Shown here piece by piece: positions 1,246 to 4,517 of a stretch of DNA of 64,000 bases; positions within the stretch are counted from its first letter, which is position 1; every line of letters starts with the position of its first letter. The stretch comes from an uncultured Gammaproteobacteria bacterium. Lineage in GTDB: Bacteria; Pseudomonadota; Gammaproteobacteria; UBA6429; Thiohalophilaceae. Where the stretch lies: NCBI GenBank assembly GCA_913064945.1, contig CAJYAN010000006.1, positions 1 to 64,000 of the forward strand, given 5' to 3'. The notes beneath the pieces are model-generated. The model worked only from the letters and a program-made list of their open reading frames with translations, searched no databases and was not told the origin of the DNA. The position numbers and the translations under genes are program-made.

Positions 1246-3117
1246 CTACATAAGCTTGTTATTAAGGCTTGCTAATAAATTTTCAAAAATCTCTGTCATA
1301 TGCAGATAAGGCAAAAAGTGTCCCCTCTCGGGCATGATAATTAGCTGACTATCAGGCAGTAATGCAGCAAGTTTTCTTCCCAGAATACAGGGTACATGCG
1401 AATCTCTTTCACCATGCCAGTGTATGGTGGGGATTTTTATGTCTGCGGCTATAAAACCCCAGGGGTGATTGAATAATTCCACTTCACGCGCTATGTGATA
1501 TGATCCCTGATTAGAAGCTTCCTGAAGTGCTCTCAATATCTTTTCACGGAATTCCTGAGAAGAGAACAATTCAGCTTCACACGGCTCTAGTTGTGTCGCA
1601 AATTGATTAAAAAAACGTTCAGGATTACGTAACATTCCACGAACCATAATAGAGGAAAGCATCCTCAGCACTTGTGGAAATTTACGTGCGAGTTTATGTG
1701 ACATTTTATAAAGAGGGATCATCCCATCAAAATCTTCAGCAGAATGTGCTGTAACTCCACAGCTTATAAGCAACAATCGTTCGATTCTTTCCGGAATAGC
1801 GTAAGCCACAGCTTTTGCAAATAGCCCACCCATTACATAACCGGCTATACTAAATTTATCTAACTGCAAAGTATCTGCCAGTGTTTCAATGTCCTGAACA
1901 TAATCAAGAACACTGTCTAGGTGTTTTGGATCTGAGAGTCCAAAGCCAGGTCGGTCAGGTGCTATCAGACGTATGCCTTTTTCTAATGCTGCTTGCGCCG
2001 CAAGATTTTCTATTTCAATCCGGCAGCCACGAACACTATGCAAAAAAATAACTGGCACGCCATCAACTCGACCATATTCCTGGAAAGCAAGAATGCGACC
2101 ATCTGGTAACTTAATCGTCCTCGTATTGCTATCGTTATCCGACAATGTTGATCTATGACCTAACAATCGCATAGAATCCCGTACATTCTCACCTGGTCCA
2201 ACAAGGACTAATCTAATCAGTTCCGACTGTCTGTTCAAACCTGTTTTACTTAATATCGCCTTTACCTGTGAACGTACAGTATGTTCACTAGTCTTTCTTT
2301 TATTGACAATCTCCTTGATACTGTAACCTCGCACCAGTAATGCAGCAATTTCACTTTCTTTATTAGTCAGACTATATAGCGCGCTAAAAGAGGATGGCAA
2401 AATAAACGGCTGTGATTTTGGGCGTGAAACAAACATTGCAACATGCGAAGAATCACTCATATCGCTACCCTTAATAGGACTCAGGTATACCATTATGTTA
2501 TTTGACTCATCAGAGCCATGAGAAAGCATCAACGCAAGATCACTCTTTGAAGATGGCGCGCTATGCGCCATCTTTTCAATTGCACTACGCAAATTCCTGG
2601 AAGTGGATTCATTGACAGATTCTATTCGTCGCTTATCAACATAAAGCAACTCACCGCTTTCTAGTAGCGACAAAGCCTGGCTATTACATTCAATAATTTC
2701 TGCATTAGCATTAACGATAATAACTGAAACAGGAAGGCGGTTTATTAACGTGACAATCATGTCTTTTTGTTCTTCATAATCTACCAGTCGCTTTGACACC
2801 AGTAATGCATTTTTAAAATGAGAAAGTAAAACAGGCGAAACATTACTAAGCGAAAGGGAATTTTGTTGTTCTGGTTTATCTGGCTCCAGACTAGGGAGAT
2901 ACTGTAAAGCTGTAGCCAACGAAAAATTAGTTCGTGCATTTCCGAATAGGGATGCTAAATTTTCACTTCGAATTATATCACTGTTATCTGCCTGTTCAGA
3001 ATCAACTGTATCGACAAAATTTGCCAGTGCATGTAGCAATTCAGGCCATTGTTCAGGATCGGCGGCAGTCGTGTAAATAAGACCGATCATTTTATGTATA
3101 TTAAACTCATTATTCAT
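1246..3117 (-). CDS. PAS / LuxR-type HTH regulator fused to an alpha/beta-hydrolase domain lacking the nucleophile serine
   Basis: This 623-residue protein has three parts. Residues about 120-235 look PAS-like (LPVSVIIVNANAEIIECN). Residues 247-303 form a LuxR/GerE helix-turn-helix (LTNKESEIAALLVRGYSIKEI). Residues about 335-620 form an alpha/beta-hydrolase fold, with RLIAPDRPGFGLSD, the elbow at 423-431, acid candidate Asp572 in GERDSHVP and His600 in PERGHFLPY. The elbow reads G-Y-V-M-G-G, so position 428 is Val (codon GTA) where the nucleophile Ser is expected. The domain may therefore bind a ligand rather than hydrolyse it. It looks more AT-rich than the core genes and sits beside IS elements, which suggests acquisition. 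Target genes and ligand are unknown. Confidence 0.85.
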   Translation of the reverse strand: MNNEFNIHKMIGLIYTTAADPEQWPELLHALANFVDTVDSEQADNSDIIRSENLASLFGNARTNFSLATALQYLPSLEPDKPEQQNSLSLSNVSPVLLSHFKNALLVSKRLVDYEEQKDMIVTLINRLPVSVIIVNANAEIIECNSQALSLLESGELLYVDKRRIESVNESTSRNLRSAIEKMAHSAPSSKSDLALMLSHGSDESNNIMVYLSPIKGSDMSDSSHVAMFVSRPKSQPFILPSSFSALYSLTNKESEIAALLVRGYSIKEIVNKRKTSEHTVRSQVKAILSKTGLNRQSELIRLVLVGPGENVRDSMRLLGHRSTLSDNDSNTRTIKLPDGRILAFQEYGRVDGVPVIFLHSVRGCRIEIENLAAQAALEKGIRLIAPDRPGFGLSDPKHLDSVLDYVQDIETLADTLQLDKFSIAGYVMGGLFAKAVAYAIPERIERLLLISCGVTAHSAEDFDGMIPLYKMSHKLARKFPQVLRMLSSIMVRGMLRNPERFFNQFATQLEPCEAELFSSQEFREKILRALQEASNQGSYHIAREVELFNHPWGFIAADIKIPTIHWHGERDSHVPCILGRKLAALLPDSQLIIMPERGHFLPYLHMTEIFENLLASLNNKLM

Positions 3118-3175: not shown

Positions 3176-4517
3176 CTGACCGATCCCCTCAAAATCATAC
3201 ATAACCACATGACTCACTGTGCTGTAGCTGGAGTTGTCTCATTGCTTCAATAAACTCTGATTTCAAAAAATCATCCGCTCCTCGCTTAATGACCTCAAGG
3301 CCCAGAAAAAAAGTTGAAAGCACCTTTTCAGTTTTCACGGTATTTGCCTGATAATGTCGATGCCACTGTTTTAACCCGGCGATCTTGCCAATCAGCCAGA
3401 CAGCAAATGTCGTCAGATGCGCTACCAATAACAGGTTTTCATAGCGGCAGGTGGTGGTGCGACGAGCTTCGTTAACCGCAAATCCCCAACGACTGATCTT
3501 GATGTCACGAAAGCCCTCTTCAATCTTCGTACGTGTTTTGTATAAATGAAAAATCTGTGAAATATTGGCATATCGTTTATCAAGTGAGGCGACAAGCAGC
3601 CATGTCGTGCGTTCACGATGCACGTTCCTCTCAGAGTATTTCATCGCGCAACGTTCACCAAAAACCGTTTTCTTGATGCAGCCTTGTTTACTGTTTTTTA
3701 GTAAATAAGCGTGACATCTCAGCGAGTTGTTACGCAACAGATCGATTTCACCTAAATAACGCCTGCGTGTTGTCGCCATCTCAAATACTTCCTCGACGCG
3801 TATCCACTCTTCCTCTCCTGGTGCAGACAACATCATATGCCCATCGACGCGGCCTACAAAATCCCACCCCATCTCTTCGATAGCACGAAACCACGGTGTG
3901 CGAAAACCGGCATCCGTCACGACGATAGGGTGACAGTGGTCTGGTAATATAGCGTTGAGTCGCATAAGAAAACGTTTGTGTACCTGCGGATTCCCATTGT
4001 GACGTTGGTGATGACTCTCTTCATAGAGCGTTAATGCCCGACCATCAACCGGAATAGAGACCCACAGAAGATGAAATTCGCGATCAGCACTTAGATCTGA
4101 CCAATCAATATGGATGGCTGGCCGACGTTGTGCACCAATCATGTGGGTTGCCATGGCTTTGTAAATGACAGAACGGTCTTGATGCATCGCTGCTCTGCCT
4201 ATTAAACGATCAGCACGTTTAATATTGTGTTTGGTTTTAGTTTGATTACATATGGCACAGCCCAGACCCGTCACGGACAATTTCTTGCCGTTCATTAATG
4301 CTGTGGTAGCTAGTATCAATGTTGTCATTCGCTTCTTATGAACCTCTTGACAGTGCTTCCTTCAAATGCGTATTAAGTAATTGGGTGGCATGCATGTTGT
4401 TTTCCTTATATTAACCTCAGCACCTAATACAAGATCAAAAAATACCATGCGTGTCCACCTGATCATTTTTTATACCTAAATTATTGTTTTTGACCGCTTT
4501 TTTTAGGGATGCCTCAG
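3176..4517 (-). mobile_element. IS10-like element (IS4 family), about 1342 bp
   Basis: The ends are short imperfect inverted repeats of the IS10 type. From 3176 inward the sequence reads CTGACCGATCCCCTCAAAA. From 4517 inward on the minus strand it reads CTGAGGCATCCCTAAAAAA. The shared pattern is CTGA-nnn-ATCCC-nnn-AAAA. The length is close to that of IS10 (1329 bp). The 9-bp flanks, ggtcaacga on the left and agtcagaga on the right, match at 6 of 9 positions. This could be a decayed target duplication or chance. The single transposase gene is frameshifted near its 5' end. Confidence 0.75.
3195..4395 (-). pseudogene. IS10-like transposase, frameshifted after about 16 codons
   Basis: The long frame (4328-3195, 377 residues) is an IS4-family DDE transposase. 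It has Asp75 in HIDWSDLS, Asp139 in VVTDAGFRTPW and Glu270 inside the family signature Y-x2-R-x3-E-x6-K (Y263, R266, E270, K277). The C-terminus HYQANTVKTEKVLSTFFLGLE strongly resembles IS10. The natural start appears to be the ATG at 4395, preceded by AAGGA at the right distance. It reads MHATQLLNTHLKEALS and then runs into a TAA. In the downstream frame QEVHKKRMTTL continues the alignment to IS10 (PELHLKRLNSL). A one-base slip near 4350 separates the two. Re-initiation at ATG 4328 would give a product lacking about 23 N-terminal residues. The element is probably inactive. Confidence 0.75.

Follow-up and report, generated by a model that had tools for sequence, protein, structure and literature searches.

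What can an alpha/beta-hydrolase domain contribute to a transcriptional regulator when the nucleophile of its active site is missing? The question is raised by one gene in the window (the whole 64,000 nucleotide stretch of DNA analyzed here, from an uncultured gammaproteobacterium). The gene and the parts of its product that bear on the answer are as follows.

1246..3117, minus strand: whole regulator gene, encoding a 623 aa protein (P0001) with the order PAS-like domain, LuxR helix-turn-helix (HTH), alpha/beta hydrolase
2983..3099, minus strand: helices of the N-terminus, residues 7-45, which carry the family motif LIGLIYxxAxDPxxWPxLL
2413..2835, minus strand: long helix 95-127 and PAS-like domain 128-235 (below the Pfam cutoff; PAS chains and VqmA match its fold)
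2200..2394, minus strand: LuxR/GerE HTH, residues 242-306 (PF00196 above cutoff; matches the DNA-binding domains of VraR, NarL and LiaR at Z 10.5-10.8)
1252..2124, minus strand: alpha/beta-hydrolase domain with cap, residues 332-622 (PF00561, pLDDT and a match to 9wlv)
2035..2040, minus strand: oxyanion-loop His360-Ser361 (invariant His-Gly in unfused relatives)
1825..1842, minus strand: nucleophile elbow G-Y-V-M-G-G, residues 426-431 (Val428 codon GTA at 1834-1836)
1402..1404, minus strand: Asp572, acid position kept
1318..1320, minus strand: His600, kept in 11/11 members of the nearest clade

The sequence-only reading had described a PAS/LuxR-HTH regulator fused to an alpha/beta-hydrolase, and this architecture is recovered by Pfam for the HTH and the hydrolase and by fold for the PAS domain. 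GerE was identified at residues 249-303 (26.2 bits, cutoff 23.5) and Abhydrolase_1 (PF00561) at residues 355-604 (53.5 bits, cutoff 25.8). The PAS score of 17.1 bits is below the curated cutoff of 22.6, and the domain is assigned as PAS by its fold. In a separate model of residues 1-310, which comprises the PAS-like domain and the LuxR HTH, residues 128-234 superpose on PAS chains (for 3fc7, Z is 9.9 and rmsd 3.1 over 94 residues), and the HTH matches VraR (Z 10.8, rmsd 1.9, 64 residues). By its GerE score above cutoff and its matching fold, the protein is a LuxR/GerE-type (PF00196) regulator. The T, R, K and Q columns of the HTH are conserved in the fused proteins (i.e., those that share this domain order, described below). 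With E values of about 1e-6 to 1e-5, the quorum-sensing receptor VqmA heads the Foldseek list for the N-terminal model, and EL222 is near the top. VqmA also has a PAS domain followed by a LuxR HTH, but it has no hydrolase domain, and the window family has an extra N-terminal helical segment. Each domain is ordinary when taken singly; no paper describing a LuxR/PAS/alpha-beta-hydrolase fusion was found in a library of open-access papers.

The AlphaFold2 model of the window protein, built on a 58-row alignment, has a mean pLDDT of 83, with the hydrolase domain mostly at 95-98 and the linker between HTH and hydrolase (residues 309-328) below 50. The core fold and cap place the domain in the alpha/beta-hydrolase superfamily, where its best sequence relatives are PcaD/esterase-like. 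The cap is modeled in full, as six helices within 468-549. Residue 428 forms the turn between strand 422-427 and helix 429-440, i.e., the nucleophile elbow, at pLDDT 95-98. Both the reading of Val428 (GTA) in the elbow GYVMGG, with Asp572 and His600 kept, and the claim of a complete hydrolase fold without its nucleophile are upheld, the latter by a confident model in which all cap helices are present. With Val428 instead of a Ser, Cys or Asp nucleophile, the protein does not classify as a catalytic serine hydrolase. The best solved match to the domain is 9wlv (Z 37.0, rmsd 2.2, 286 residues). Other solved matches include two engineered Ser-less proteins, S102A PhaZ (8ynw) and S112A BphD with substrate (2puh). 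These show that such a fold stands without the nucleophile and, in the case of 2puh, that it also binds substrate.

GTA is at least two substitutions away from every serine codon, so a single base-call error cannot account for Val428. The nearest relatives use GCC or GCA (Ala) at the elbow, and a path from Ser through Ala to Val would fit these codons. A search of the family of one relative (L174) yielded eight more proteins with an Ala elbow (L213-L219 and L221). In a 44-row tree, the window protein, L004, L174 and these eight form a nearest clade of 11 (bootstrap 99, SH-aLRT 97, present in all 200 bootstrap trees) that spans four genera and two families; L001 and L004 pair in the same tree at 98/94. 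The elbow residue is Ala in 10 members (GYAMGG, GYATGG or GYAVGG), Val in one and Ser in none. His600 is present in all 11, and the acid in nine (it is replaced by Asn in L218 and by Ser in L219). The alternative that homologues mostly keep Ser, with this copy a lone mutant, does not survive these counts: the nearest clade is without Ser throughout, and Ser occurs in only 27 of the 61 fused proteins compared below. A lone mutant or a sequencing error was rejected on the two-step codon together with the clade-wide loss of Ser. An alternative Ser filling the site was also considered. No Ser adjoins the elbow, and Ser361, which sits at the oxyanion Gly position of the window protein, has counterparts in 10 fused proteins that keep the nucleophile and in 10 that have lost it. 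Given these equal frequencies, Ser361 does not look compensatory, and it was rejected as a compensating nucleophile for want of any association with nucleophile loss.

The domain is nonetheless preserved. Hydrolase reading frames are intact in the nearest clade at 31-41% identity (0.31-0.41 to the window protein, compared with 0.22-0.34 for the N-terminal/PAS part where present). Invariant positions make up 46 of the 284 hydrolase columns, including H360, S361, G426, Y427, G430, G431 and H600. Among L213-L216, all from one sister genus, dN/dS of the nucleophile-less hydrolase is 0.028-0.046 (dS 0.31-0.94), which is as low as that of the PAS part. The nucleophile-less domain is thus under strong purifying selection in this sister genus. 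The other lineages that lack the nucleophile have saturated dS; among the pairs listed, their hydrolase domain has a dN comparable to that of the PAS part or lower.

To place the loss in a wider context, we collected relatives by whole-genome and contig searches. A contig scan with the single window protein as query gave no matches, whereas an alignment-based scan did. In all, 62 non-identical fused proteins sharing this domain order and about 100 unfused relatives were obtained. One fused protein that ends before the acid was set aside, as were three truncated or borderline sequences, leaving 61 fused and 98 unfused proteins. At the nucleophile position the fused proteins have Ser (27), Cys (1), Asp (2) or another residue (31), with the caveat that the elbow alignment is less certain in the most divergent of them. 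They retain the acid Asp in 53 cases, the His in 31 and the oxyanion Gly in 11. The unfused relatives, in contrast, have Ser in 97/98, oxyanion Gly in 98/98 and, where there are data, Asp in 96/96 and His in 94/94. An intact Ser/Cys-Asp-His triad occurs in 16/61 fused proteins (three with the canonical oxyanion HG) versus 93/94 unfused ones (Fisher p 3e-24, a descriptive value since the rows are related and are not independent events).

The pattern is also apparent in the 31 hydrolase columns whose conservation among the unfused relatives reaches 85% or more. From unfused to fused proteins, conservation falls from 1.00 to 0.18 for the oxyanion Gly, from 0.99 to 0.44 for Ser and from 1.00 to 0.51 for His. 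The acid is down only to 0.87 in the fused proteins, and G349, G353, R389 and G391 remain at 0.93-0.98. Some non-catalytic columns drop too (D388 from 0.90 to 0.43, and also G538, R366 and P576). Apparent two-gene versions, in which a PAS-LuxR gene adjoins or overlaps a hydrolase gene, were identified at five loci (L008, L012, L014, L081 and L142), and all five keep S-D-H and HG. Thus, from column conservation and the active sites of the two-gene versions, we conclude that in this sample catalytic residues are lost, with the fold kept, almost only in the fused form.

Other residues occupy the elbow in a few fused proteins. A paralogous fused clade (L220 and L222, the latter identical to L203) has retained Asp and His; its elbow is GFCGGG, in which the Cys (codon TGC) is possibly a cysteine nucleophile. 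Asp is found in L200, L211 and L230 (Ruegeria sp. TM1040, WP_011536845.1), with the elbows GYDVGA, HDVGT and GYDAGA. Dehalogenases and epoxide hydrolases have Asp at this position, and these three fused proteins may catalyze reactions by a different chemistry.

Catalytic residues were lost more than once. A 132-row tree of the hydrolase domain, calculated with the catalytic columns omitted, requires at least 11 changes at the nucleophile and at least 14 at the His, of which four and three, respectively, are forced by supported (starred) branches. A 67-row tree requires at least eight nucleophile changes, four of them forced in the same way. From the near-universal Ser in unfused relatives, we infer that the direction of change was from Ser to other residues. 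A single origin of the fusion is not rejected (AU p 0.716, 67-row tree). The fusion may have arisen once, so the contrast between fused and unfused proteins does not amount to many independent events. A paired phylogenetic test of fusion versus triad loss has just 1-5 independent pairs, too few for power.

Repeated loss of catalytic residues with the shape of the enzyme kept suggests conversion of an enzyme to a non-catalytic sensor, which supports the sequence-only reading. We lean, by a modest degree, towards a one-component regulator whose hydrolase domain functions non-hydrolytically, with binding of a small molecule as its most likely role. In such a protein, the PAS-like domain and the non-hydrolytic hydrolase domain would flank the LuxR-type HTH in one polypeptide. 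Beneath the retained cap, the former substrate pocket would hold a small molecule and leave it uncleaved, and pocket occupancy would alter the packing of the hydrolase against the PAS/HTH part and so switch DNA binding. The invariant pocket-side H360, S361, Y427 and H600 favor binding without proving it. This scheme would be equivalent to the "occupancy" Model 2 for RsbQ-PAS (PMC3183031), except that the partner is fused and catalysis has been given up. For RsbQ-PAS itself, product delivery (Model 1) and occupancy (Model 2) were both left open (PMC3183031); product delivery is hardly feasible for a relative that lacks the nucleophile. Against the sensor reading, the triad survives in about one quarter of the fused proteins, so that catalysis is still conceivable for the family as a whole.

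The main rival, which we regard as possible but rather unlikely, is that the dead hydrolase is a structural scaffold that binds no small molecule but stabilizes, dimerizes or masks the HTH through protein contact, or serves as a docking site for a partner. A fold retained after catalysis is lost suits a scaffold equally well, and the hydrolase follows directly after the HTH, across the short low-confidence linker 309-328. A working precedent exists in PqsE, which has a metallo-beta-lactamase fold. This enzyme fold controls a LuxR-type regulator, RhlR, independently of catalysis, which is dispensable for enhancing RhlR DNA binding (PMC9600345), although PqsE is a separate protein and still an enzyme. 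Less easily reconciled with a scaffold are the complete cap in the model and the nearest-clade invariance of the pocket-side His360, Ser361, Tyr427 and His600, which seems beyond the need of a pure scaffold.

It is improbable, in our estimation, that the domain is still catalytic by another route, be it an alternative nucleophile (e.g., Ser361), a water activated by His600 or a non-hydrolytic reaction. The window protein does keep Asp and His, the His is shared by the whole nearest clade, and the Cys elbows (L220, L222) and Asp elbows (L200, L211, Ruegeria TM1040) offer possible nucleophiles. However, Ser361 is equally frequent with and without Ser428, the acid is lost in two members of the nearest clade (L218 and L219), many fused proteins lack His, the acid or both, and most lack the canonical oxyanion Gly. 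Decay, with the hydrolase domain a relic of the fusion under relaxed constraint, appears very improbable. The catalytic columns are filled by many different residues and the gene adjoins an IS remnant in an AT-rich stretch, as might suit a relic, but the low hydrolase dN/dS (0.03-0.05 among the Ala-elbow orthologues) excludes decay for the sister genus. The dN comparison in other nucleophile-less lineages (among the pairs listed), the frames intact at such low identity and a gene order conserved between two genera (described below) also speak against it.

As a non-hydrolytic sensor, the window protein would resemble several known systems, each in part. In RsbQ/RsbP-PAS of Bacillus subtilis and relatives, a hydrolase paired with PAS likewise controls an output (PMC3183031), and the two-gene relatives of the window family follow the same operon logic. 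RsbQ is, however, a separate protein that needs its Ser-Asp-His triad, and the reported outputs are a PPM phosphatase, a histidine kinase or a diguanylate cyclase (PMC3183031), whereas the window protein is a single polypeptide with a LuxR HTH output and an eroded triad. Being fused, with an HTH output and without the nucleophile, it is not an RsbQ-PAS module.

The plant receptors GID1 and D14 had been offered as analogies, and only GID1 is a fair parallel in principle. In GID1, an alpha/beta-hydrolase fold has turned into a non-catalytic receptor whose pocket is the former active site (PMC3531792). GID1 is of the plant, hormone-sensitive-lipase lineage, lost His while keeping Ser and Asp, and acts via DELLA proteins; the window protein is bacterial, lost Ser while keeping His and Asp, and has its own DNA-binding domain fused. 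Because the opposite residue is lost and the relatives are PcaD/esterase-like, it cannot be classed as a GID1 receptor. The comparison with D14 fails for the point at issue. The strigolactone/karrikin receptors D14, DAD2 and KAI2 are also alpha/beta-hydrolase receptors, but their triad is intact and is required in DAD2 (PMC3531792), and they provide no parallel for nucleophile loss.

We give about even chances to a broader proposal: that these proteins form a widespread, undescribed proteobacterial family of one-component regulators, in which fusion to PAS-LuxR freed the hydrolase from catalysis and repeatedly gave non-catalytic small-molecule receptors. This would be a bacterial counterpart of GID1 evolution with the intermediates extant. 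It is an old question whether signaling by hydrolases (RsbQ, KAI2 and D14 among them) depends on the product made or on occupancy, and the triad-keeping two-gene members and triad-losing fused members are a natural series in which catalysis can be separated from signaling. With DNA binding as the readout, these bacterial proteins are also suited to the study of how an enzyme changes into a receptor.

The gene had been read as AT-rich, lying between IS sequences and perhaps acquired. It is AT-rich (40.2% GC, against 50.4% for the window; GC3 is 31%, and 55% in the neighboring rlmJ), and acquisition is possible. IS sequence is present on one side only, with rlmJ on the other. The gene for a DDE transposase (3195-4328) ends 77 bp upstream of the regulator gene, so the native promoter may be disturbed in this genome. 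This IS is probably decayed. The likely true N-terminus of its transposase (window 3195-4420), MHATQLLNTHLKEALSRGS, is cut by a stop upstream of the ORF start, and contig C7 has, from its edge onward, a partial 95% copy of the transposase.

The regulator gene stands alone in two genera of the sister family, in the order der - gene - xseA - guaB - guaA, which is kept between them. The L004 gene adjoins mnmA, and the window gene rlmJ (rlmJ was named by Pfam; der, xseA, guaA, guaB and mnmA were named from sequence by eye). The surroundings of six loci were searched for a recurrent operon or enzyme partner, and no such partner was found. On a Woeseiaceae contig (L087:4503-7263), a second PAS-LuxR ORF overlaps the start of the fused gene. 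Degenerate fused versions were also identified on plasmids of the alphaproteobacteria Paracoccus, Aliiroseovarius, Maritalea and Peteryoungia (L231, L232, L233, L234 and L235), where they are annotated merely as alpha/beta hydrolase or LuxR regulator.
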